Shown here: positions 9,905-63,574 of the stretch, in pieces
How positions within the stretch are numbered: position 1 is the stretch's first letter
Layout of the letters: each line of letters opens with the position of its first letter
Assembly: GCF_027942295.1 (NCBI RefSeq)
Contig: NZ_CP101416.1
Span: 372,001-436,000, forward strand
DNA length: 64,000 nt
Direction of reading: 5' to 3'
From: Pseudanabaena sp. Chao 1811
Lineage (GTDB): Bacteria > Cyanobacteriota > Cyanobacteriia > Pseudanabaenales > Pseudanabaenaceae
Position numbers and translations under genes: made by a program
The notes under the pieces: model-generated
Databases searched by the model: none
The model's input: the letters and a program-made list of their open reading frames with translations, nothing else
Told to the model about the DNA's origin: nothing

Positions 9905-12407
9905 GCGGTGATCGCTAGCTACGAAATCAGGCATAATGAGATTAGCCGATATTTTCACTTAATGTAAAGTTTGATGATCCTTAATAAGCTCGAACCCAAG
10001 CAAGCATTAAATAGTAAGTATTTGAAGATTAAGCCTGATGCGGAGAATATTCAGGAATTTAAGGCTAATTTGGGGCGGATGCTTAAAGATTGTGACAACA
10101 AAAAGGATGAAGAGTTTAATAAAAATTTACTGAGTGATTTTCTAAAAAAGAGCTTTTATGGCGATCGCTATTTCATTAATACGAAGGAAAATAGCGATCT
10201 AGTAATCCACAATGATAAGGATGTGGAAAGTACGGTTGGGGTGATCTTTGAGACGAAGAAGCCAACTAAAACTAATAGTGGGGAAATGCCAAGGGTAGAT
10301 CATCTCAATCGCAAGGCTTTTCAGCAGTTGGTTTTATATTTTTTGCGGGAGAGGGTGACGCATGGCAATGTTGCGGTGAAGCATTTGGTGGTGACGAATA
10401 TTTATGAGTGGTTTATTTTTGATGCGAAGATTTTTGAGGAGTTGTTTTATAGCGATAAGCAGTTAGTTAAGAATTTTCAGGATTTTGGAGAGGGGCGGCT
10501 GAGTGGGACAACAACGGACTTTTTTTACAAGCAGATTGCGGAACCTGCGATCGCTAAGGTAATTGACCGCATTAAATTCACACATTTTGATTTGCGCGAT
10601 CTTGAGAATTTAGATTTGCTTGATCTTTACAAGATTCTTTCGCCTGAGCATTTGTTGAAGTTGCCCTTTGCTAATGACAGCAATAGTTTAAATAAGCCTT
10701 TTTATAATGAGTTGCTGTATATCATTGGGTTGACGGAAACGAAGTCAGGGGGCAAGAAGTTAATTGGGCGGATGGCGGAAAGCGATCGCCATGATGGTTC
10801 TTTGATTGAGAATGCGATTAGTCGTTTGGATAGTTTGGATAAGATTTCGCAGTTAAAGAAGCCTGAAGAGTTTGGGGAGAGTTACGAGGAGAGGCTTTTT
10901 AATGTGGCGCTGCGGTTGTCGATTAATTGGATTAATCGGATTTTGTTTTTAAAGTTATTGGAGGCGCAGTTAATTAAATATCATCAAGGCGATCGCGATT
11001 TTGCTTTTCTGAATTTGGCAAAGATGCAGAACTATGATGATCTGGATAGTCTGTTTTTTGATGTGTTGGCAAGGGAGCAGGATAGGCGCGAGGCAAAGGT
11101 TAAGGCGGCTTTTGCGAATGTGCCTTATTTGAATAGTTCGCTATTTGAGCCAACAGAGGCGGAGCAGCAAACGATTGTAATTAGCAATCTCAAGGATCGG
11201 GATTTGCCAATTTTTAGCGGGACGGTGCTGAAGGATGGTAATGGGAATAAGCGATCAGGTGAGTTGAATGCGTTGGCTTATTTGTTTGAGTTTTTGGATG
11301 CTTATAAGTTCGATCGCGATGAGTTGGAAGATACGCAGGAAGATAGTGAGAAGTTGATTAATGCCTCGGTGTTGGGGTTGATTTTTGAGAAGATTAATGG
11401 CTATAAGGATGGGTCTTTCTATACGCCGAGCTTTATTACGATGTATATGTGTCGGGAGACGATACGGCGGGCGGTGGTGCAGAAGTTTAATGAGGTGAAG
11501 GGTTGGAATTGTCAGAGTCTTGATGATTTGTATGAGAGGATTGAAGATAAAAAAGAGGCGAATGCAATTATCAATAGTCTCAAGATTTGCGATCCTGCGG
11601 TGGGTTCGGGGCATTTCTTGGTTTCAGCTTTGAATGAGATGATCGCGATTAAGAGTGAATTGCGTGTTTTATTGGATCGCTCTGGTAAGTCGCTAAAAGA
11701 TTATCGAGTGGAAGTACGGAATGATAAGTTGTTGGTTTACGATGATGAAGGGAAGTTGTTTGCTTATCATCCGAATAATGCTGAGAAACAGCGTGTGCAG
11801 GAGGCTCTATTTCATGAGAAGCAAACGATTATTGAGAGTTGTTTGTTTGGGGTGGATATTAATCCTAATTCGGTGACGATTTGTCGGTTGCGGTTGTGGA
11901 TTGAGCTTTTGAAGAATGCTTATTATAGACCAGATGGTAATCTGGAAACCCTGCCAAATATCGACATTAATATCAAGTGTGGTAATTCTTTGATTAGTCG
12001 GTTTGGGTTGGATGTGGATGTGAAACAGGTTTTGAAGAAGCAGAAGTTTAGTATTGAACAGTATCGAAATGCGGTGCAGACTTATCGCAGTGCGGAAAGT
12101 AAGGCGCAAAAGCGAGAGATGGAAAATTTGATTGCGAAGATTAAGGCTGGTTTTAGTTCGACTTTGTTGGCTGGTGATCCTAAGAAGGTGAAGTTACGAC
12201 AGTTGCAAGCGGAGCTTTATAGTGTCGAAAATCAGACTTTGTTATTTGAAGAGACTAAGGCGGAGGTTAAGGATAGAGAAAAGAAGGTTAATAAGTTAAA
12301 TAATGAGATTGATAAGTTAACTGCGGAGATTGAGGATATTGAAAGCGGTCGGCTCTATGAGAATGCTTTGGAATGGCGGTTTGAGTTTCCTGAAGTTTTG
12401 AATGATA

Positions 12408-13435
12408 CAGTCCATTGAGGGATTAAGTAGTACAGTAACAACACTTAGTAAACCAATTTTTGAAGAAATCTTTTTCTAACAAGTAAGGGAAAACGTTGAT
12501 TAAATGCTGAAGTAGTTTTTGAGAATGAGGTCTAAGCAATCTAATAAAATATTTGAGAACCGACCACATCATCTCAATTGGATTAAAATCAGGAGAATAG
12601 GTGGGTAAGTACAAAATCTTAGCACCTGTCGCTGTAATTGCTTTTGCGACCCCCTCAACTTTATGGCAGTTGAGGTTATCCATGATGATCCTATGCTCAG
12701 GACGTAATTTAGGTACTAGGTCATCTTGGACAAAGGTGAGAAAATCTGCTCCTTTCATAGAACCCTGAATCGTTTTCAGGCAAACAATCCCATCAACTGA
12801 AATAGCGCCAATTATTGTGTATTTCTGACCTTTGTAAAAGGGACGAAGACTGAATACTCTTTTGCCACATTCACTTCTTGCCACAGAGCGTTCCATCCCC
12901 TGCCATACTCCCGTTTCATCAATACAAATCAGATCTTCAGCTTTCACTTCATTCAATGCTTCCCAAAATTCACATCTTTGCTGTTGTACTGCCTCACTTT
13001 TTACCTTTTCATGGCGATAGGTCTTTTTTTTAGAGTGATGTTATGCCTCTGGAAAAATCGGCACATGCTGCCTGTGGTCACTGATACTCCTGTTTGTTCT
13101 GCTACTTCTTCACAGTACTGCCATAGTGTCCAATCTGGATGCTCTGAGACAATTTCGAGGATTTTCTCCTGATGCGCTTCGAGGGGACTTTTGATTGGAC
13201 TACCTAATGGTTTGTGGTTTAGTTCTCCTGTCTCTCGGTATTGATTCAGTAGTTTTTGCACTGTTTTCGTCGCGACTTGAAATTGCTTCGCTACTTCCCG
13301 AATCGATGTATTTCCTGCTTCGTAGTTTGCTACGATCTTTTCTCTGAGATCTAGTGAGTAAGGTGCCATTTTTTACTCTCTTTTGGGTTTTGCTATCCTA
13401 GCTTATCTTGTACTACTCTTTCCCTCAATAGGCTG
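12408..13435 (-). mobile_element. IS630-family element, copy A
   Basis: 1028 bp, flanked by the TA target duplication (12406-12407 and 13436-13437). The terminal inverted repeats are imperfect: CAGTCCATTGAGGGATTAAG at the left, and CAGCCTATTGAGGGAAAGAG read inward at the right, each followed by TAGTACA (with GTAGTACA in common). Its encoded proteins are identical to those of copies B and C in this window, suggesting very recent transposition. It disrupts the restriction-modification gene. Confidence 0.95.
12423..13369 (-). CDS. IS630-family transposase, copy A (two frames joined by -1 frameshift)
   Basis: OrfA (13369-13001, 122 residues) carries the helix-turn-helix region with IREVAKQFQVATKTVQKLL. 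OrfB (annotatable from 12956 to 12423) carries the catalytic DDE domain, with aspartates in CIDETGVW and IIMDNLNCHK and the glutamate in SPDFNPIEMMW. OrfA ends just after a run of eight A (on the coding strand) where a -1 slip joins the frames into a continuous protein of about 315 residues. The arrangement is typical of IS630 elements that use programmed frameshifting. Confidence 0.92.
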
Positions 13436-13461
13436 TAGTGGCGATTTTGTTGGCTTTGATA
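13436..13461 (+). other. 26-bp island of host gene between two IS630 copies
   Basis: Between the TA after copy A and the TA before copy B lie 22 bases that encode SGDFVGFD of the interrupted methyltransferase when both IS are removed. The two elements therefore inserted independently at neighbouring TA sites in the same orientation. Confidence 0.9.
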
Positions 13462-14489
13462 CAGTCCATTGAGGGATTAAGTAGTACAGTAACAACACTT
13501 AGTAAACCAATTTTTGAAGAAATCTTTTTCTAACAAGTAAGGGAAAACGTTGATTAAATGCTGAAGTAGTTTTTGAGAATGAGGTCTAAGCAATCTAATA
13601 AAATATTTGAGAACCGACCACATCATCTCAATTGGATTAAAATCAGGAGAATAGGTGGGTAAGTACAAAATCTTAGCACCTGTCGCTGTAATTGCTTTTG
13701 CGACCCCCTCAACTTTATGGCAGTTGAGGTTATCCATGATGATCCTATGCTCAGGACGTAATTTAGGTACTAGGTCATCTTGGACAAAGGTGAGAAAATC
13801 TGCTCCTTTCATAGAACCCTGAATCGTTTTCAGGCAAACAATCCCATCAACTGAAATAGCGCCAATTATTGTGTATTTCTGACCTTTGTAAAAGGGACGA
13901 AGACTGAATACTCTTTTGCCACATTCACTTCTTGCCACAGAGCGTTCCATCCCCTGCCATACTCCCGTTTCATCAATACAAATCAGATCTTCAGCTTTCA
14001 CTTCATTCAATGCTTCCCAAAATTCACATCTTTGCTGTTGTACTGCCTCACTTTTTACCTTTTCATGGCGATAGGTCTTTTTTTTAGAGTGATGTTATGC
14101 CTCTGGAAAAATCGGCACATGCTGCCTGTGGTCACTGATACTCCTGTTTGTTCTGCTACTTCTTCACAGTACTGCCATAGTGTCCAATCTGGATGCTCTG
14201 AGACAATTTCGAGGATTTTCTCCTGATGCGCTTCGAGGGGACTTTTGATTGGACTACCTAATGGTTTGTGGTTTAGTTCTCCTGTCTCTCGGTATTGATT
14301 CAGTAGTTTTTGCACTGTTTTCGTCGCGACTTGAAATTGCTTCGCTACTTCCCGAATCGATGTATTTCCTGCTTCGTAGTTTGCTACGATCTTTTCTCTG
14401 AGATCTAGTGAGTAAGGTGCCATTTTTTACTCTCTTTTGGGTTTTGCTATCCTAGCTTATCTTGTACTACTCTTTCCCTCAATAGGCTG
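13462..14489 (-). mobile_element. IS630-family element, copy B
   Basis: 1028 bp, same orientation as copy A, with TA duplications at 13460-13461 and 14490-14491. Excision with one TA gives GFDIVIGNPPYG, the catalytic motif IV of the host methyltransferase. Copies A and B form a direct repeat of 1028 bp with a 26-bp spacer, so recombination between them should readily remove one copy. Confidence 0.95.
13477..14423 (-). CDS. IS630-family transposase, copy B (two frames)
   Basis: Protein sequence identical to copies A and C. OrfA 14423-14055 holds the DNA-binding part, and OrfB from 14010 to 13477 holds the DDE catalytic part, joined by a predicted -1 frameshift at the A8 run. Catalytic residues are intact, so the element appears functional. 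Confidence 0.92.
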
Positions 14490-15659
14490 TATCGTAATTG
14501 GTAATCCGCCTTATGGAGTAACATTAACTAAACAAGAAGACTCTCTATTTAGGCAAAATTATCAAGTATCGAATTATCAAATTGATACATATACTTTATT
14601 TACTGAGTTAGGAATAAAAATTAGCAACCCTAACTTTATTCTATGTTTGATTATCCCTAATACTTGGTATGCATCAATTTATGATACTCAATATAGAAAG
14701 TATTTAATAGATAATAAATTTGTTAATAGCATTACAACTTGCCCAGTTAATACCTTTGATGATGCCGTAGTTGAAACCTGCATTTTAGAATGCATCCCCA
14801 AAAATAATAAAGATTATTTTGAAGTTTATTCTCTCAAAAAAGAAGAATTAAACAAGGTTCTATTTGATGACATTATATCTAATGAAAGATATTCAATTGG
14901 TTCATTTTCAAAATCAAGTGATTTTACGCTGACAAAAAAATAATTGATTCCAACGAAAAAGTTAATGATTATTTTGATGTAATATGGGGAATAAAAGTTT
15001 ATGAGAAAGGTAAGGGAAATCCTCCTCAAACTGGTGAAGAATCACAACAAAAAATCTTTCATTCAGAAAGCCGTCTCACTCCTACACATAAGCCTTTAAT
15101 TGGAGGCAGTGAAATTTTTCCATACAGATTATCATGGAAAGGTGGCTTTGTAAATTATGGAGATTGGATTGCAGCACCTAGAAAGCCAATATGGTTTGAG
15201 GCTAATCCCAGAATTGTTGTTAGAGAGGTTACATCAAAAGGACATATTTTTGCAACACTAATATTTGATGAATATGTTTTCTCAAATTCAGTTGATGGAA
15301 TAAAAAGTAAATCAAATAATATTCAAGATTTAAAAATTTTGCTTGCTATACTCAACTCTAAGTTTGCACGGTTCTTTCACTTAAATAAATCTGGTAATAG
15401 CTCAAAAGACACTTTCCCTAAAATTTTACTTCAAGATCTCAGAGAATTCCCATTTCCAAAAGGTAGAAGCAATTTTGAAGAAATCTCGATAATTGTTGAC
15501 GAAATTCTCACTGCTAAAAAAGGCGATCCTAATGCTGATACGAGCGAATTAGAAAAGAAGTGCGATCACTTAGTTTACAAACTCTATCAACTCACCTATG
15601 AAGAAGTAAAAATCATTGATCCAGAATTTGAACTAACAGAACAGGCACTGGTGAGTTAA
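14490..15659 (+). pseudogene. 3' part of the type IIG R-M gene (recognition domain)
   Basis: Separated from its 5' part by the IS copies. It begins inside motif IV (IVIGNPPYGVTLTKQ) and runs as one frame to the stop after TLTKK at 14941-14943. The rest continues one base shifted from 14943 to 15659 (IDSNEKVNDYFDVIWGIKVY through LTEQALVS). The region following NPPY in type IIG enzymes is the target-recognition domain. An ATG inside the IS (14437) could start a short fusion, but no function is expected. Confidence 0.85.
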
Positions 15660-17801: not shown

Positions 17802-18196
17802 AAAGATAATATTCCTCAACGCCATAGCGCTCGTAAAATTTCAGTTTCTTTGCCATTTCACTGGTTCTATTACCCGGAGAAAGAATCTCGAAGGCAACTT
17901 GAGGGGCAATACCACCCTCGACCCATTGCATATAGGAACCACGTCTGCCCTTCGGTCTACCAAATACCACCATCGCATCGGGAGCCGTGCGAATTGTATT
18001 ATCTCCTTCAATGGGATACCAGAGTAAATCGCCTGCAACAAATACATTAGGATCGTTCGCAAAGAGACATTCCAAGTTCTCTTTAATCATTACAATCCAG
18101 TCAAATTGCTCAGTATTGTTGCTCATCGGCAGCCCATCATCGTCAGGATAAATAACCCAAGTTGCTACCTATTAAAAATCGGCTCAAAACAAGTTA

Positions 18197-19224
18197 CAGC
18201 CTATTGAGGGAAAGAGTAGTACAAGATAAGCTAGGATAGCAAAACCCAAAAGAGAGTAAAAAATGGCACCTTACTCACTAGATCTCAGAGAAAAGATCGT
18301 AGCAAACTACGAAGCAGGAAATACATCGATTCGGGAAGTAGCGAAGCAATTTCAAGTCGCGACGAAAACAGTGCAAAAACTACTGAATCAATACCGAGAG
18401 ACAGGAGAACTAAACCACAAACCATTAGGTAGTCCAATCAAAAGTCCCCTCGAAGCGCATCAGGAGAAAATCCTCGAAATTGTCTCAGAGCATCCAGATT
18501 GGACACTATGGCAGTACTGTGAAGAAGTAGCAGAACAAACAGGAGTATCAGTGACCACAGGCAGCATGTGCCGATTTTTCCAGAGGCATAACATCACTCT
18601 AAAAAAAAGACCTATCGCCATGAAAAGGTAAAAAGTGAGGCAGTACAACAGCAAAGATGTGAATTTTGGGAAGCATTGAATGAAGTGAAAGCTGAAGATC
18701 TGATTTGTATTGATGAAACGGGAGTATGGCAGGGGATGGAACGCTCTGTGGCAAGAAGTGAATGTGGCAAAAGAGTATTCAGTCTTCGTCCCTTTTACAA
18801 AGGTCAGAAATACACAATAATTGGCGCTATTTCAGTTGATGGGATTGTTTGCCTGAAAACGATTCAGGGTTCTATGAAAGGAGCAGATTTTCTCACCTTT
18901 GTCCAAGATGACCTAGTACCTAAATTACGTCCTGAGCATAGGATCATCATGGATAACCTCAACTGCCATAAAGTTGAGGGGGTCGCAAAAGCAATTACAG
19001 CGACAGGTGCTAAGATTTTGTACTTACCCACCTATTCTCCTGATTTTAATCCAATTGAGATGATGTGGTCGGTTCTCAAATATTTTATTAGATTGCTTAG
19101 ACCTCATTCTCAAAAACTACTTCAGCATTTAATCAACGTTTTCCCTTACTTGTTAGAAAAAGATTTCTTCAAAAATTGGTTTACTAAGTGTTGTTACTGT
19201 ACTACTTAATCCCTCAATGGACTG
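18197..19224 (+). mobile_element. IS630-family element, copy C
   Basis: 1028 bp in the opposite orientation to copies A and B, at a TA inside the MITE. Ends and coding content match copies A and B. Confidence 0.96.
18263..19209 (+). CDS. IS630-family transposase, copy C (two frames)
   Basis: OrfA spans 18263-18631. OrfB is readable from 18601 in the -1 frame, or from the internal ATG at 18676, to 19209. The A8 run at 18601-18608 is the slip site: frame 0 reads CTA AAA AAA AGA, and the -1 frame continues AAG ACC TAT, giving KKKTYRHEKVKSEAVQQQ into the DDE domain. Without a slip OrfA stops at 18629-18631. DDE residues are present. Confidence 0.93.
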
Positions 19225-19485
19225 TAAAAACAGCCTCGCTAAGTCCAAAATGACGCTATTTTTATATAAAAATCTAGCATTTTTTATTTTAACTTTAGTA
19301 TTGAATGAATAGGTAGCAACTTGGGTTAAATAATTTTTTGAGAAGGTGGCATTTGTAAAATCATGGCGCAACCTCAAAAATGTTTGGTTATCTTCTAGGG
19401 AACCAGATTTTTTACGGCAAAGCTGCACTATAAAAAATCTGACTCCTTATTTTACTGCATCTCTCTTAAGTAGCTCATCATAGTT

Positions 19486-41115: not shown

Positions 41116-42582
41116 ATGGCTACTGTTGCCCTAGCTGCGTTTATCCTGTTGCGAGTAGGTTTCTGGCTATTCGCGCCCCCAAATCCCGATGAAGCTTACT
41201 ATTGGCTTTGGGGACAGCATTTAGATTTCTCCTACTATGATCATCCACCGTTGCAGTCATGGTTACAGGGATTAATTACTGCTTGCTTGGGCAAATCTCT
41301 ATTTACTTTGCGATCGCTAAATGTCATTACTAATGGCATTTTTTTCTATACCTATTACCAACTGCTCCAATATCTCTATGGCGATCGCGTCAAGCGTTAT
41401 ATCTGGTGGATAATTCTCGCCATTTTCGCATCTCCTCTCTACAGCATCATGTTGTCATTGGCATGGCATGACCATGTGGCAATTACCCTAACCTTGATGG
41501 GCGCTTATTTATGTATAAGATTTCTCGATGAATATCTGATTGATGGCAAAGGCTCAAGTTGGCGACTATATGGCAGTGCGATCGCTTTATCCTTAGCGCT
41601 GATTACGAAATACAATTCCCTCTTTATGACCTTGGGATTGTTAGTTGCGATCGCGACGCATTCCCAATTACGGAAGCTATTTAGAGATATCCGTTTGTGG
41701 TTATGCGTGGTGATAGGAGCAATTGTCTTTACCCCTGTTTTCTATTGGAATTACAGTAATAATTTTCAATCATTTCGCTTTTATGCAAGTCGTAGCGTTG
41801 ATAGTGGCTTGCCAATCATGCGCTTGCTAGAGCCTTTAGGATTTATTGGCATTTCTCTATTAATGCTTTCTCCCTTTGTGGCATGGTTGTTGTGGAAAGG
41901 ATTTAAAGAAAAATTGCCACTTCAGGAAACAGTTTATAGACATATTGCCTTGTGGACATTTGCCGTACCCACATTTCTACTAATCGCAATTTCGCTAATT
42001 TCTACAGCGCTTTATTATTGGAATATCCATGCCTACCTATTGCTATTTCCATTGCTACCATTAGCTCTAGAATCTAGACCACAGATAAAGTCGCATCGAT
42101 TGCAAGTTTTCTATGGAGCGCAAGTTGCTGGTTTATTATTTACCGCTTTCTTTGTTTGGAATTCCTCTGTATTTCCTGTGAGTGCATTGTTTGGCAAAGA
42201 TGGAGATCAAGATGGACGGATGTTATTTGGATGGAGTGAAGTTGCATCAGAAGTGCAAAAGATTGCAAATACTTTGCCAGAGAAGCCCTTGCTAATTACT
42301 TCTGATTATCGTTCAGCCGCTGCCCTTGCCTATGAGATGAATAATCTTAACGTCACAGCATTGTCTAAACGCATTAGTCAATTTACGCTTTGGAATTTAC
42401 AGAATGCAGCACAGCAAAAGGGTAAAAATGCAATTTTCATCTCTGATCAATGGTATCCACTTACTGAAGAAGCGATCGCCCATTTCGAGAACATCCAACC
42501 CATTAGTAAAGTAGCAATTACTAGATTTGGTGTGTATTTGAAGACTTACGAAATTGCGATCGCTCAAAACTATCAACCCTAA
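41116..42582 (+). CDS. GT39-like membrane glycosyltransferase
   Basis: 488 residues with about ten hydrophobic segments. The first outer loop has NPDEAYYWLWGQHLDFSYYD then HPPL, the ArnT/PMT (GT39) signature with the acidic pair around D-E and the H-P-P motif. It should move a sugar from a polyprenyl-phosphate donor on the outer face of the membrane. Paralogue at 42883-44520. Confidence 0.88.
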   Translation: MATVALAAFILLRVGFWLFAPPNPDEAYYWLWGQHLDFSYYDHPPLQSWLQGLITACLGKSLFTLRSLNVITNGIFFYTYYQLLQYLYGDRVKRYIWWIILAIFASPLYSIMLSLAWHDHVAITLTLMGAYLCIRFLDEYLIDGKGSSWRLYGSAIALSLALITKYNSLFMTLGLLVAIATHSQLRKLFRDIRLWLCVVIGAIVFTPVFYWNYSNNFQSFRFYASRSVDSGLPIMRLLEPLGFIGISLLMLSPFVAWLLWKGFKEKLPLQETVYRHIALWTFAVPTFLLIAISLISTALYYWNIHAYLLLFPLLPLALESRPQIKSHRLQVFYGAQVAGLLFTAFFVWNSSVFPVSALFGKDGDQDGRMLFGWSEVASEVQKIANTLPEKPLLITSDYRSAAALAYEMNNLNVTALSKRISQFTLWNLQNAAQQKGKNAIFISDQWYPLTEEAIAHFENIQPISKVAITRFGVYLKTYEIAIAQNYQP

Positions 42583-42645
42583 AAATTAGGCAGCACAGTG
42601 CGCCCACTTGGGTAAACATAACGCGAGTTCGGGATAATTTGAAAC

Positions 42646-42690
42646 GGGATTTGAGAGAGGGTTGGCGTAGCCAACCCTCTCTCAAATCCC
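42646..42690. repeat. 45-bp perfect palindrome, GTA loop
   Basis: 21-bp arms around GTA. Its right arm end (AAATCCC) is also the left arm end of the next palindrome. Confidence 0.92.
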
Positions 42691-42734
42691 AAAAGTAAAA
42701 GCCTTGCTAAGCAAGGCTTTTACTTTTGGGATTT
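42684..42734. repeat. 51-bp perfect palindrome, TAA loop
   Basis: 24-bp arms around TAA. Shares AAATCCC with the preceding palindrome, so only one can form fully at a time. The outer flanks AACGCGAGTTCGGG (42620) and, inverted, AACGTCAGTGCGGG (42766) enclose both. Confidence 0.92.
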
Positions 42735-42787
42735 TAAAATTTGCCAGCTTAACCCGCACTGACGTTAACCATACGTGAGTTCGATAA

Positions 42788-42824
42788 CGCCATTTGCGCG
42801 GCGCGAAGCGCCGCGCAAATGGCG
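42788..42824. repeat. 37-bp perfect palindrome, GAA loop
   Basis: 17-bp arms around GAA; its last four bases are shared with the next palindrome. Preceded by ACGTGAGTTCGATAA, also found at 63638. Confidence 0.9.
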
Positions 42825-42867
42825 GAAAATGGTAAAAATCGCTTAGCGATTTTTACCATTTTCCGCC
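42821..42867. repeat. 47-bp perfect palindrome, TTA loop
   Basis: 22-bp arms around TTA, joined to the preceding palindrome through GGCG, 16 bases before the end of the following minus-strand gene. Flanked on the far side by the inverted GTCAGTTCGACG, which pairs with the GTGAGTTCGAT at 42775. Confidence 0.92.
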
Positions 42868-42882
42868 TTCGTCGAACTGACA

Positions 42883-44520
42883 TTAACCATAGGGACGAGG
42901 ATAGGGTTTAAGCATAGGAGAAGCACGATAAACAGGAAAAATCTGGACGGCTTGACCACCACGTTTAATAGGAATATCAGCGATTTTTTCGAGGGACTGG
43001 AAGTAACCTTTGTATTTATCTAGAGGCTCTGGAAATCGCTCATCCTTCATAAACTGTTCAGAAGTAATATAGAGCGAAGTCTTACCTACAAAATCTTGAG
43101 CTTTACTCCAGTAAGCAAACCCGCGTAAGTCTTCATCAAAACAGGTAACTTTTTTGCCCAGTGGCTCGATCGCCATGCCCACTTGTCCCGCCACAAAAAA
43201 ACTATTGCTAAATACAAAATCTGCTTTTTGTAATTCTGCTTTCAGTGCTGGAGAATCGACAAAGGCTTGGCGTAACTGCTCAATATCAATCATTTGCGTA
43301 GAGGGATCATCCTTAGCTTCCCAGAAACCACCCGCGATCGCCGCATCACCCCCTTTTTGAGCAATACCCAAATGCACATGGAGTAAGCCGATTAGCAACA
43401 ATGGCAAAATCACCATACCCGAACCCCAGAGCCAATTGCGAATAAATTTGGGGCGTTTGATCTGCACCAATGCAGCCCGTTCGCCTAATAACAAAGTTGC
43501 GCCAAAGAACCCTGGCATATGCCATGAGGGGAGGATTTGGATAAAGCCACCCATAAAGGTAAATCCAAAGAAAATTGGCATCGATACGCAGAGGATTAGT
43601 AATCGTTTTTGATGGAGTATTTCCAAAGCGCGTACTTCTTCCTCTGGTTCTTCACTGGGAATGCCCTTAAGTTTACGATTGCCAAATTGTAATAATTCGC
43701 CCAAGTCACGAAAACTTGTCCACCAAATGGGAACTCCAAACGTAGGAAATAGATAGCCAAGAGCCACTAAAATCGTCACTAATAGACGTTCTAAGTTATA
43801 TCCCTCAGAGGGTACAGCACGCTTGCTTTGAAATCTAAAGGAGGCAAATTCATGTTGGGAGTTCCAGAAGAGAACGGGAGAAGTCGCGATCGCAAATAAA
43901 GCGATCGCAGCTAATGTCCATCCCGAAAACAAAGCTGCCCGATGGCGACTACTAATCAAGCAAAATAGGACTAGTCCGCCACCAAGTAGCACGCCATGAT
44001 ATTTGCCCAAAAAGGCTAATCCCACTAATAGACCAATGATTGCTAAGCGATAGGTCGGTTTATAGGGCTTATGGTCATAGATTTCACCCGATGGGAAAAA
44101 CTCAGTCGCGGCAACATATAAACAAGCTGACCAGAAAAACATCAGCGCATTGTCTGGCAAAGTGAGAATGCCAAAGGCAATCTGAAAAATCGGAATTGTT
44201 GTCAGAATCGCAAGGGTCAGCGTAGCTGTGCGTTCCCCAAATAGCTTCTTGCTAGCCAGATAGGAAAAAATTAAGGTTCCTGTATAAAGTAAAACGCCAC
44301 CAATCCGAATCGTGAAGGGTGTAACTGCACCTGTAAGCCAAACTCCTATTCCCGTAGTCAAAGCTACCAGCGGCGGATGGTCGAAATAGCTCCAGTTGAG
44401 ATTTTGCGTATAAAGATAGTAGTAAGCTTCATCAAAGCCCGTATTGAGATAGATAGCGGACGTAGCCCTAAAGAGGAAACCCCACAATAATATGGCGATC
44501 GCCCACTTATGAATTTTCAC
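42883..44520 (-). CDS. GT39-like membrane glycosyltransferase
   Basis: 545 residues from GTG 44520, chosen because AAAGGAA lies 7 bases upstream; a frame from 44583 would run through a repeat end. Many hydrophobic segments. The first loop has FDEAYYYLYTQNLNWSYFDH then PPL, the same GT39 signature as 41116-42582, and TLPDNALMFFW. Probably glycosylates lipids or exported polymers. Confidence 0.87.
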   Translation of the reverse strand: MKIHKWAIAILLWGFLFRATSAIYLNTGFDEAYYYLYTQNLNWSYFDHPPLVALTTGIGVWLTGAVTPFTIRIGGVLLYTGTLIFSYLASKKLFGERTATLTLAILTTIPIFQIAFGILTLPDNALMFFWSACLYVAATEFFPSGEIYDHKPYKPTYRLAIIGLLVGLAFLGKYHGVLLGGGLVLFCLISSRHRAALFSGWTLAAIALFAIATSPVLFWNSQHEFASFRFQSKRAVPSEGYNLERLLVTILVALGYLFPTFGVPIWWTSFRDLGELLQFGNRKLKGIPSEEPEEEVRALEILHQKRLLILCVSMPIFFGFTFMGGFIQILPSWHMPGFFGATLLLGERAALVQIKRPKFIRNWLWGSGMVILPLLLIGLLHVHLGIAQKGGDAAIAGGFWEAKDDPSTQMIDIEQLRQAFVDSPALKAELQKADFVFSNSFFVAGQVGMAIEPLGKKVTCFDEDLRGFAYWSKAQDFVGKTSLYITSEQFMKDERFPEPLDKYKGYFQSLEKIADIPIKRGGQAVQIFPVYRASPMLKPYPRPYG

Positions 44521-44577: not shown

Positions 44578-44709
44578 CAGCAATTCTCATTATGAAACCG
44601 AATTTTGGGGTTTCTAGCGTCTTTGGCACTAGAAACCCCAAAATCGGTTTTTTGAAAGCCCGCCTACAACGAACTTTCAAAAAACCGATTTTTATACTGA
44701 GAATTGCTG
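44578..44709. mobile_element. 132-bp palindromic MITE-like element
   Basis: 15-bp terminal inverted repeats CAGCAATTCTCATTA (one mismatch). Inside, one hairpin (44595-44650, tip TTT with a mismatch and a bulge) and a second (44640-44692, 19-bp arms, 15-base loop) share AAAATCGGTTT. The right end overlaps nothing coding. Confidence 0.75.
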
Positions 44710-49710: not shown

Positions 49711-49819
49711 CAATTAAGTAGATGGGCGCAATTAAACATAAAAACCAGAAAACCTGTGGCGCACGCTGAGCGTGCGCCACAGGTTTTCTGGTTTTTAATT
49801 ATGCTCAGCTACTTAATTG
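49711..49819. mobile_element. 109-bp palindromic MITE-like element
   Basis: Ends CAATTAAGTAGATGGGCGCA and, inverted, CAATTAAGTAGCTGAGCATA. The core 49740-49796 is a 57-bp perfect palindrome (27-bp arms, TGA loop). A solo right end occurs at 36062-36086. Confidence 0.85.
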
Positions 49820-55010: not shown

Positions 55011-55527
55011 TCAAGAAGCAGCTTTGGTCACGACTGAGGTAACTTCCCCAGTTTCTCAATGGCTAACTAACAATGGCTTTGAGCATGAGTTTCTAGGGCT
55101 TGACCAACAAGGCGTTCCCATTCTCAAAATCGATCGCCAGTTTTTACTTCCCTTTTCCACAGCGCTCTATGCCTATGGCTTTAACTACTTGATGATGCAA
55201 TGTGGTTATGATGCAGGCGCAGGTGATAGTTTGGTGAGTGTTTACCATCTCGCCAAGCTAACCGATGAGGGTATTGATAAAAGCGATCGCCTTGAGGAAG
55301 TTCGCGTTAAGGTATTTCTCCCTCGCACCGATCCCCGTTGCCCATCGGTCTATTGGATCTGGAAGACTGCGGATTGGCAAGAGCGTGAAACCTACGATAT
55401 GTATGGCATTGTCTACGAAGGACATCCCAATCTTAAGCGGATTCTTATGCCCGAAGACTGGATTGGCTATCCGATGCGAAAGGATTACGTCACACCAGAC
55501 TTTTACGAATTGCAAGACGCATATTAA
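55000..55527 (+). CDS. ndhJ: NDH-1 subunit J (NdhJ)
   Basis: 175 residues, TTG start at 55000 with AGGAGG upstream, overlapping ndhK by 11 bases. Contains [20 protein letters not shown] and [20 protein letters not shown], the 30-kDa subunit signature. A damaged copy of its 3' end is at 62613-62820. Confidence 0.96.
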
Positions 55528-55563
55528 GAAAGAAGCACCCAATGGGTGCTTCTTTCTTAATAT
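55521..55563. repeat. 43-bp perfect palindrome, AAT loop
   Basis: 20-bp arms around AAT, with the ndhJ stop codon in the left arm. The duplicate at 62814 has one uncompensated A-to-G change (a G-T pair). Confidence 0.92.
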
Positions 55564-55598
55564 AGAAGAGGCGGCGCATTGCGCCGCCTCTTCTATAT
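55560..55598. repeat. 39-bp perfect palindrome, ATT loop
   Basis: 18-bp arms ATATAGAAGAGGCGGCGC around ATT; shares ATAT with the previous one. Copy at 62853 differs by two compensated changes. Confidence 0.93.
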
Positions 55599-56282
55599 TT
55601 ATGTGACTGCGACATTAGCCCGTACCCATTTCCGAAATTCTCTTAAGGTTGCACTCTCTCCTAAAGTTAATCGTTGCTGCACATATTCGACAACGATCGC
55701 GGCAGGTAAATCGGGAAAGGCTAAACTCTTCTCAATCGGTTTATATTCTCCATCCTCTAAGGCTAGAAATTCTAAACTATAGCCATCATAGCGCCAGACT
55801 TCAGGCACATTTAGCAAGGCGTATATTGGTAAACGGTGATCGCTAGGGTTGGTAATATCTACTTCTAAAACCAAGTCAGGTGGAGGATCTTCTCCCACAA
55901 TAATTACTTCTTTATTCCTAATTATTGGCTCATTCTGGATGTAATAACAAGAATCTGGCTCTGCTCCTAACTTTAGATCAGGAATTTTCATCAGTAAAGA
56001 GCCAAGCTTTCGCAAATCAATTTCTAGCTCATCAGAAAATGCTCTAATTAAATCATCAATAAACCGATTGCTACCTTCATGAATTGAGAGGGGAGACATA
56101 ATTTCTAATGTGCCATTGAGGTAATGAAATAGGGTGTTGCGGCGATCGCCTAGATCGGCAAGTAAACTTTCAAAAGTCTGCCAACTAACGTTATGTAGGG
56201 TCACGCGATATTCGGCAAGGGGACGATCTTGATCAGCGATCGAAGATGAAGTAACGGATTTGCTTAGTGTTGTCGCAGTCAT
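55599..56282 (-). CDS. Uma2-family (DUF820) protein
   Basis: 227 residues with the Uma2 core PDSCYYIQNEPIIRNKEVII and PPPDLVLEVDITNPSD, then LPIYALLNVPEVWRYDG. The PD-(D/E)XK-like residues are D in PDSCY, E and D in LEVD. A large cyanobacterial family, function mostly unknown. A paralogue at 62891-63574 is about four-fifths identical by eye, more so in the C-terminal half. Confidence 0.9.
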   Translation of the reverse strand: MTATTLSKSVTSSSIADQDRPLAEYRVTLHNVSWQTFESLLADLGDRRNTLFHYLNGTLEIMSPLSIHEGSNRFIDDLIRAFSDELEIDLRKLGSLLMKIPDLKLGAEPDSCYYIQNEPIIRNKEVIIVGEDPPPDLVLEVDITNPSDHRLPIYALLNVPEVWRYDGYSLEFLALEDGEYKPIEKSLAFPDLPAAIVVEYVQQRLTLGESATLREFRKWVRANVAVT

Positions 56283-62820: not shown

Positions 62821-62856
62821 GAAGGAAGCACCCAATGGGTGCTTCTTTCTTAATAT
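62814..62856. repeat. 43-bp palindrome, AAT loop (duplicate)
   Basis: Copy of 55521-55563 with one G-T pair. Confidence 0.92.
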
Positions 62857-62891
62857 GGAAGGGGCGGCGCATTGCGCCGCCCCTTCCATAT
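62853..62891. repeat. 39-bp perfect palindrome, ATT loop (duplicate)
   Basis: Arms ATATGGAAGGGGCGGCGC; differs from 55560-55598 at two positions, each changed in both arms so that pairing stays perfect. Confidence 0.94.
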
Positions 62892-63574
62892 TATGTGACT
62901 ACGACATTAGCCCTCACCCATTTCCGAAATTCTCTTAAAGCTCCACTTTCTCCTAAAGTTAAGCGTTGCTGCACATATTCGACAATAATCGCGGCGGGTA
63001 AATCAGGAAAGGCTAAACTCTTCTCAATCGGTTTATATTCTCCATTCTCTAGAGCCAGAAATTCTAAGCTATAGCCATCATAGCGCCACACTTCAGGCAC
63101 ACCAAGTAAGGCATATATCGGTAAACGGCGATCGCTTGGATTGGTGATATCAACTTCTAAAACTAAATCAGGCGGTGGATCTTGCCCAACAATCACATTC
63201 TCTTGAGCGCGAATCCTTAACTCATTTTTGAGGTAATAACAAGAATCTGGTTCCCCACCTATTTTTAGTTCAGGTATTTTCATTAGCAAAGAACCTAGAC
63301 ATCGCATATCAATTTCTAGTTCATCTACATAAACTGTTAATAATCTATCAAAAAAGCGACTGCTACCTTCGTGAAGTGAGAGGGGAGACATGATTTCGAG
63401 AGTGTCGTTGAGGTAATGAAATAAAGTCTTGCGGCGATCGCCTAGATCGGTAAGTAAATTTTCAAAAGTATGCCAACTAACGTTATGCAAAATCACGCGA
63501 TTTTCGGCAAGGGGGCGGTTTTGTTCAGCGATCGGCGATGGGGAATTAGTTTTTCTGATTGTTGTGGCGGTCAT
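62891..63574 (-). CDS. Uma2-family (DUF820) protein, duplicate
   Basis: 227 residues from ATG 63574 (GGAGGA eight bases upstream). Core PDSCYYLKNELRIRAQENVI and PPPDLVLEVDITNPSD. Paralogue of 55599-56282; the C-terminal half is nearly the same, the N-terminal half more diverged. Confidence 0.9.
   Translation of the reverse strand: MTATTIRKTNSPSPIAEQNRPLAENRVILHNVSWHTFENLLTDLGDRRKTLFHYLNDTLEIMSPLSLHEGSSRFFDRLLTVYVDELEIDMRCLGSLLMKIPELKIGGEPDSCYYLKNELRIRAQENVIVGQDPPPDLVLEVDITNPSDRRLPIYALLGVPEVWRYDGYSLEFLALENGEYKPIEKSLAFPDLPAAIIVEYVQQRLTLGESGALREFRKWVRANVVVT

Follow-up and report, generated by a model that had tools for sequence, protein, structure and literature searches.

Two pairs of overlapping palindromes lie next to each other in a 64,000-nt stretch of the Pseudanabaena sp. 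Chao 1811 genome (the whole stretch analysed, here called the window), and within each pair the two stems have one arm in common. This raises the question of what such chains are and how their arms stay matched. Both lie between two entries of the list of open reading frames, one on the forward strand with its end at 42582 and one on the reverse strand with its end at 42883. We denote the left, middle and right arms of an X-X'-X chain as X1, X' and X2, where X' pairs with either neighbour. The chains, E1 and E2, consist of the following stems:

42646-42690, no strand assigned: E1 stem A, X1 (42646-42652) to X' (42684-42690), 21 bp perfect, 3-nt loop, tip GCGTAGC
42684-42734, no strand assigned: E1 stem B, X' (42684-42690) to X2 (42728-42734), 25 bp perfect, 1-nt loop, tip GCTAAGC
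42788-42824, no strand assigned: E2 stem A, 17 bp perfect, 3-nt loop, tip GCGAAGC
42821-42867, no strand assigned: E2 stem B, 23 bp perfect, 1-nt loop, tip GCTTAGC, with GGCG common to E2 stem A

An earlier note on this DNA had reported that AAATCCC is common to the first two palindromes and GGCG to the second two. Both observations are exact, and all four stems are perfect. The note had proposed that only one stem of each pair can form fully at a time, as in a switch. We consider it highly improbable that the RNA switches between two folds that exclude each other. The stems do have a common arm, but only 7 bp (E1) or 4 bp (E2) are exchanged while the remaining pairs coexist, the minimum-energy and centroid folds of E1 are nearly degenerate (-81.0 vs -80.4 kcal/mol, 0.6 apart), and the same chain is found at dozens of scattered sites. 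A comparison with Rfam gave 20 weak matches, none at the gathering score, and no assignment to a riboswitch or attenuator.

A search of 38 genomes, including that of the strain itself, resolved the region into two separate dispersed repeats at approximately 42619-42768 and 42773-42886. E1 is present in its own genome (G000) in at least 41 places including the window copy, based on the best 40 of 133 candidates scored; 39 of the other copies are 88-94% identical and one is 78% identical. For E2, the best 40 of 202 candidates scored gave at least 40 places, again including the window copy, with 89-99% identity among the others. Copies read AACG...CGTT, have a length of 147 bp (E1) or 113 bp (E2) and lack a transposase of their own. 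The elements and their flanks in the window are:

42620-42766, forward strand: E1, a 147-bp MITE with IS982-type ends, the body being the first X-X'-X chain
42773-42883, forward strand: E2, a MITE with IS982-type ends, the body being the second X-X'-X chain
42613-42620, forward strand: sequence left of E1, TAAACATA, presumably a target duplicate, differing from TAACCATA at one position
42765-42773, forward strand: E1/E2 junction, TTAACCATA, target duplicate, read as common to both elements
42883-42891, forward strand: right flank of E2, TTAACCATA, target duplicate

Exact target duplicates of 6-10 bp, mostly 6-9 bp, flank 32 of 38 E1 copies and 29 of 37 E2 copies, the remaining 6 and 8 having 0-4 bp. 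At the window E2 the duplication is 8 bp, and a scan for exact matches at the window E1 yielded only 3 bp. In a relative strain (G021), which is 94-95% identical at the locus, the orthologous position has one TAACCATA and neither element, which shows that E1 and E2 arrived next to each other at a single target. The chains are thus the bodies of two non-autonomous IS982-type MITEs at one TAACCATA target between convergent reading frames. The outer inverted repeat related to AACGTGAGTTCG, which had been seen to enclose two of the chains, is real and represents the transposon ends; a count of the end motif ACGTGAGTTCG across the genome gave 69, compared to 2 for a reversed control. At least 120 public stretches carry the E1 core and, among the matches listed, all are named Pseudanabaena. 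The earlier note had suggested as an alternative to the switch that each new palindrome grew by copying the arm of an older one. As an account of events at the window site this was rejected, since both elements are mobile, have no G021 counterpart there and are present elsewhere; the copying itself is taken up below.

The likely parent is present in the same genome. Two full-length IS copies of 1005 bp (L089 and L090) carry AACGTGAGTTCGACG at both ends and encode 303 aa each. The product of L089 is an IS982 transposase (NF033520, 257 bits vs a cut-off of 130; Pfam DDE_Tnp_1_3). L089 is flanked by an 8-bp duplication, TGTAGTTA, and L090 by none that is clear. The consensus ends of E1 and E2, AACGYGAGTTCG on the left (CGYGAG) and AACGTCAGTTCG on the right (CGTCAG), match the IS ends. 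Shared ends, target duplication, dispersed copies and an empty allele in G021 place E1 and E2 among IS982-derived MITEs, which the IS982 transposase of this genome presumably moves in trans. The window also contains three similar IS-like copies at 12405-14491 and 18195-19226, in which the two frames have 122 and 177 aa; two of them are almost adjacent, and all three match one G021 segment at 94%.

Two further places in the window had been described as shared-arm pairs:

44578-44709, no strand assigned: E3, an X-X'-X element with other ends, CAGCAATTCTCA / TGAGAATTGCTG
55521-55599, no strand assigned: two adjacent hairpins sharing AATAT, the second one absent in G021

The shared arm of E3 is AAAATCGGTTT at 44640-44650, as proposed, and the stem at 44595-44650 has one bulged A. 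A second E3 copy, 77% identical, is found at C1 3171597-3171705 of the own genome. At 55521 the shared arm is also real, but the shared letters are AATAT and not ATAT, and the second hairpin starts at 55559 instead of 55560. The stretch at 62825-62893 resembles 55521-55599 in having two adjacent hairpins, of which the second is missing in G021. Other hairpin stretches with other ends are seen on the own side (window 49739-49797; O1 59777, O1 61355, O2 40136) and in the G021 blocks (G1 6960, G1 27817, G2 36625). Each of them is found in only one of the two strains or is shortened in the second, and they look like several further MITE-like families.

Perfect hairpins are abundant in this DNA generally. 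With arms of at least 10 and loops of at most 12 nt the window contains 37, compared to 3, 0 and 2 in three randomised sequences with matching dinucleotide composition. Over 464 kb of the own genome we found 170 with arms of at least 12 nt, and second-order random sequence, one per block, gave 0; for 2 of the 170, more than 90% of the hairpin falls within frames of at least 150 aa. The density of long perfect hairpins is 35-44 per 100 kb. Two other genomes of the genus Pseudanabaena contain 16 and 17 hairpins per 40 kb, and seven genomes from other families contain 0, 0, 1, 5, 1, 1 and 1. Neighbouring hairpins overlap by at least 4 nt in 13 of 168 pairs in the 464 kb, and 12 of these 13 are of E1 or E2 type by inspection. 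We regard the overlap as a trait of the E1/E2-type families and not as a rate. The tip GCNNNGC is found in 81 of the 92 hairpins with a three-base loop in the 464 kb, mostly with GAA/TTC, GTA/TAC or AAA/TTT; d(GCGAAGC) is an unusually stable structure. Small dispersed repeats of Nostoc have reportedly been described by Elhai and co-workers. Tolerance of palindromes through loss of SbcCD was considered and found no support, as the genome has SbcC-like genes (417 and 279 bits, under a curated cut-off that 1 of 14 control genomes passes).

The chains were not built at this locus, and a further question is how their arms evolve. We compared the arms among copies, counting as a double change any position pair at which both arms are altered to matching Watson-Crick bases. 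E1 showed 53 doubles against a shuffle mean of 8.5 and a maximum of 19 (33 of 40 copies read, gap-free), and E2 showed 39 against a mean of 6.1 and a maximum of 13 (35 of 38 copies read, gap-free). These shuffles, like those used for the three-arm counts below, ignore the relatedness of the copies, and we therefore also counted changes limited to one copy. There are 12 such doubles in E1 (45 own copies; chance expectation ∼0.04), 8 of which use bases that no other copy has, and 11 in E2 (35 copies; ∼0.02), 6 of which do so; the expectations are derived from the one-arm rate. Of the 23 one-copy doubles in the own-genome sets, 14 thus use bases unique within their set. In a larger set of 163 E1 copies (45 from the own genome, 30 from G021 and 88 from public Pseudanabaena contigs) we found 20 one-copy doubles, only 4 of them with bases unique to that copy.

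The same 163 copies were used to follow all three arms over seven positions each. All three arms were derived and equal in 42 cells, compared to a shuffle mean of 1.1 and a maximum of 5, and derived but unequal in 12 further cells. Changes confined to X' and X2 occupied 36 cells (shuffle 7.7) and those confined to X1 and X' 20 cells (8.1), while X1 and X2 were changed without X' in 1 cell (mean 8.1). Single-arm changes fell below the shuffled values for each arm: 11 cells (82) for X', 62 (98) for X1 and 42 (94) for X2. Whole arms behave in the same manner. All three agree in 69 of the 163 copies, which represent ten types (45 copies with the consensus and 24 with nine others, among them GGGATTT on all three arms); X'=X2 only is seen in 52 copies, X1=X' only in 22, X1=X2 only in 2, and no agreement in 18. 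X1 and X2 are not paired with each other and almost never share a change without X', suggesting that shared changes pass via X'. The E1 stem A loop occurs in both orientations, as TAC in 83 and as GTA in 56 of the 163 copies. Flip-flop loops are also known from chloroplast DNA. The arms of these elements therefore change together, all three included, and this is the part of the earlier copying idea that stood. Growth by arm copying is supported in an altered form.

We then asked whether hairpins in general behave in this way at orthologous sites. Comparing the own genome to G021, 80 of 170 hairpins have orthologous flanks, of which 48 were kept and 32 dropped as absent, indel-rich or less than 75% identical. 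In the opposite direction 74 of 183 have orthologous flanks, with 48 kept and 26 dropped; the two sets have many hairpins in common. Most of the arm changes between the strains are unpolarised. The 48 hairpins of the first set carry 23 doubles and 29 singles, with 1.9 coincidences expected, and those of the second carry 30 doubles and 38 singles, with 3.0 expected. As single-arm mismatches are common, correction is incomplete. An exact inversion of the loop is seen in 9 of 44 hairpins in the first direction and in 7 of 45 in the second; 14 of the 44 loops differ in some other way that involves no gap either. The two arms carry insertions of the same length in 4 of 63 hairpins (two of the four loosely aligned) and, in the other direction, in 2 of 65. 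Doubles are found in 13 of 27 hairpins with a changed loop vs 3 of 21 others, and in 16 of 29 vs 3 of 19 in the other direction (p 0.016 and 0.008). Doubles thus accompany changed loops, as expected from one copying event across the tip. Among hairpins with an exactly inverted loop, 3 of 9 and 4 of 7 also carry a double, the two directions overlapping.

Paired changes are a classic sign of structural constraint, and the stems could be kept paired through ordinary compensatory mutations by selection on an RNA or cruciform structure. In agreement with this, the arms diverge less than the remainder of the element (0.056 vs 0.080; 0.044 vs 0.084). However, selection on RNA would make wobble intermediates and transitions dominate, and neither is seen. 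G.T mismatches are about as frequent as A.C mismatches (38 vs 39, and 78 vs 96 in the 163 copies), a test that loses force if both strands are transcribed. The transition to transversion ratio is 12:11 and 12:18 in doubles, compared to 214:138 and 211:157 in the flanks, so nothing points to a G-U route. Inverting a loop leaves the pairing unaffected, and the paired insertions and three-arm changes at resident copies, the latter described below, also speak against this explanation. We consider structure selection quite unlikely.

Six E1 copies were found at the same site in the own genome and G021, and at four of the six all three arms differ together: L045/L136, G000 4105910, G000 4110578 and L030/L142, where X' also includes an additional base. 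At L041/L118, the strains disagree at two neighbouring positions of both X' and X2, and X1 is the same in the two. This locus may have been overwritten from elsewhere, since the G021 copies L118 (C1 4521510) and L119 (C1 587639) are identical over all 147 bp; identity at different sites reads as recent transposition or conversion. At L057/L138 doubles are present in stem A only. For E2, one copy could be aligned as an insertion common to the two strains, L072/L144, and all of its changes are single. A further E2 pair, L066/L147, lies at nearly the same place with differing flanks; as it may be two insertions, it was excluded from the counts. We also observed two rearranged stems at resident copies. 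In L045 (G000 C1 3231579-3231732) the element's own end, in direct orientation, takes the place of about 21 nt of stem A, and the G021 partner L136 has an ordinary stem A. At G000 C1 4105946 (O2 25946) stem B lacks 17 nt at its tip relative to G021, yet what is left still forms a perfect hairpin.

The L118/L119 identity is what would be expected if ectopic gene conversion between dispersed copies carried ready-made matching arms from place to place. The recurrence of some derived arm types points in the same direction, for example GGGATTT on three arms in 13 copies, as does the distribution of doubles among hairpins. Multi-copy hairpins carry 19 doubles in 33 hairpins (14 of the 33 carrying some), compared to 4 in 15 (2 of the 15) for hairpins with no similar copy in the own sequence examined. 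From this low number in hairpins without another copy we conclude that exchange between copies contributes; it probably spreads some of the matched arms and may account for many events. As an explanation of the whole pattern, ectopic conversion nevertheless appears somewhat unlikely to us. It leaves the origin of the matched arms in the ten all-equal types unexplained, and it does not account for the 23 one-copy doubles with their 14 cases of otherwise unseen bases, nor for the 4 doubles and 3 loop inversions in the 15 hairpins that have no other copy.

Taken together, we find it probable that fold-back templated copying keeps the arms alike and can pass changes through the middle arm of X-X'-X MITEs. 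A nascent or extruded strand would fold back, and DNA synthesis would copy one arm onto the other by template switching. On this reading, arms of E1, E2 and other hairpins of the genus are overwritten time and again from the partner arm. Such copying would make the arms alike, invert loops and leave paired changes, and with X' copied to or from either neighbour a change could pass from X1 to X' to X2. Matching double changes above chance and loop inversion, the marks of homogenisation by template switching, are both present; the copying step and the enzyme behind it are inferred. More tentatively, and with the chances close to balanced, arm-to-arm copying may be a standing mode of intergenic palindrome evolution in Pseudanabaena-type genomes, with X-X'-X MITEs acting as three-station relays (X1 to X' to X2 at one resident locus) and each event leaving its record in a flipped loop.

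When bases change in pairs, this is commonly taken to prove that an RNA structure is under selection. In the present case such changes are found in seemingly inert mobile elements, together with transversions and loop inversions, which indicates that covariation can stem from mutation alone. Elements with a shared arm allow a test of whether a change moves from one arm to another that is not its pairing partner, and at 35-44 hairpins per 100 kb the genus should, by extrapolation, offer hundreds of natural test sites.

E1 and E2 resemble several known systems in part. REP/REPIN sequences have an IS200-like RAYT partner, whereas the partner of E1 and E2 is a DDE IS982 element with the same ends. 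The prokaryotic MITEs of PMC10969869 are, in the parts of that article available to us, likewise short, devoid of a transposase and flanked by target duplications, with ends shared with an IS, many copies and presence/absence between strains. They differ from E1 and E2, whose body is two perfect hairpins with a common arm, and in the main text, as far as it was available, neither "IS982" nor "hairpin" occurs. The X-X'-X order itself is ascribed to replication fold-back in small inverted triplications (PMC13334657, available in part), although those have units of ∼148 bp and come from cancer and yeast rad27, and the shared arms here are 7 and 4 nt and lie in a transposable element. Perfect arms that evolve in concert are described for mitochondrial palindromes of Nematomorpha (PMC6649704, in the parts available), which are located in mitochondrial coding sequence and are not mobile elements. 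In the literature, which was covered in part, we found no MITE family built as an inverted triplication, no three-arm co-change via a middle arm, and no article title naming such elements in Pseudanabaena.

The closest parallels concern the process. Template switching in yeast (PMC8604942, available in part) gives reversible arm homogenisation and inverted spacers as seen here. That work covered 39 coding genes, while the present hairpins are intergenic, have arms of at least 12 bp and many loci, and include three linked arms. According to the available part of PMC8794818, template switching creates and maintains RNA hairpins, and one event explains both paired changes and loop inversions; a compensatory change together with a loop inversion is regarded there as the strongest possible support and as extremely rare. 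Compared to that rarity, 3 of 9 and 4 of 7 of our hairpins with an inverted loop carry a double. The two-arm process is thus known from elsewhere, and what is new to us is the three-arm chain in a MITE and the extent of the process.
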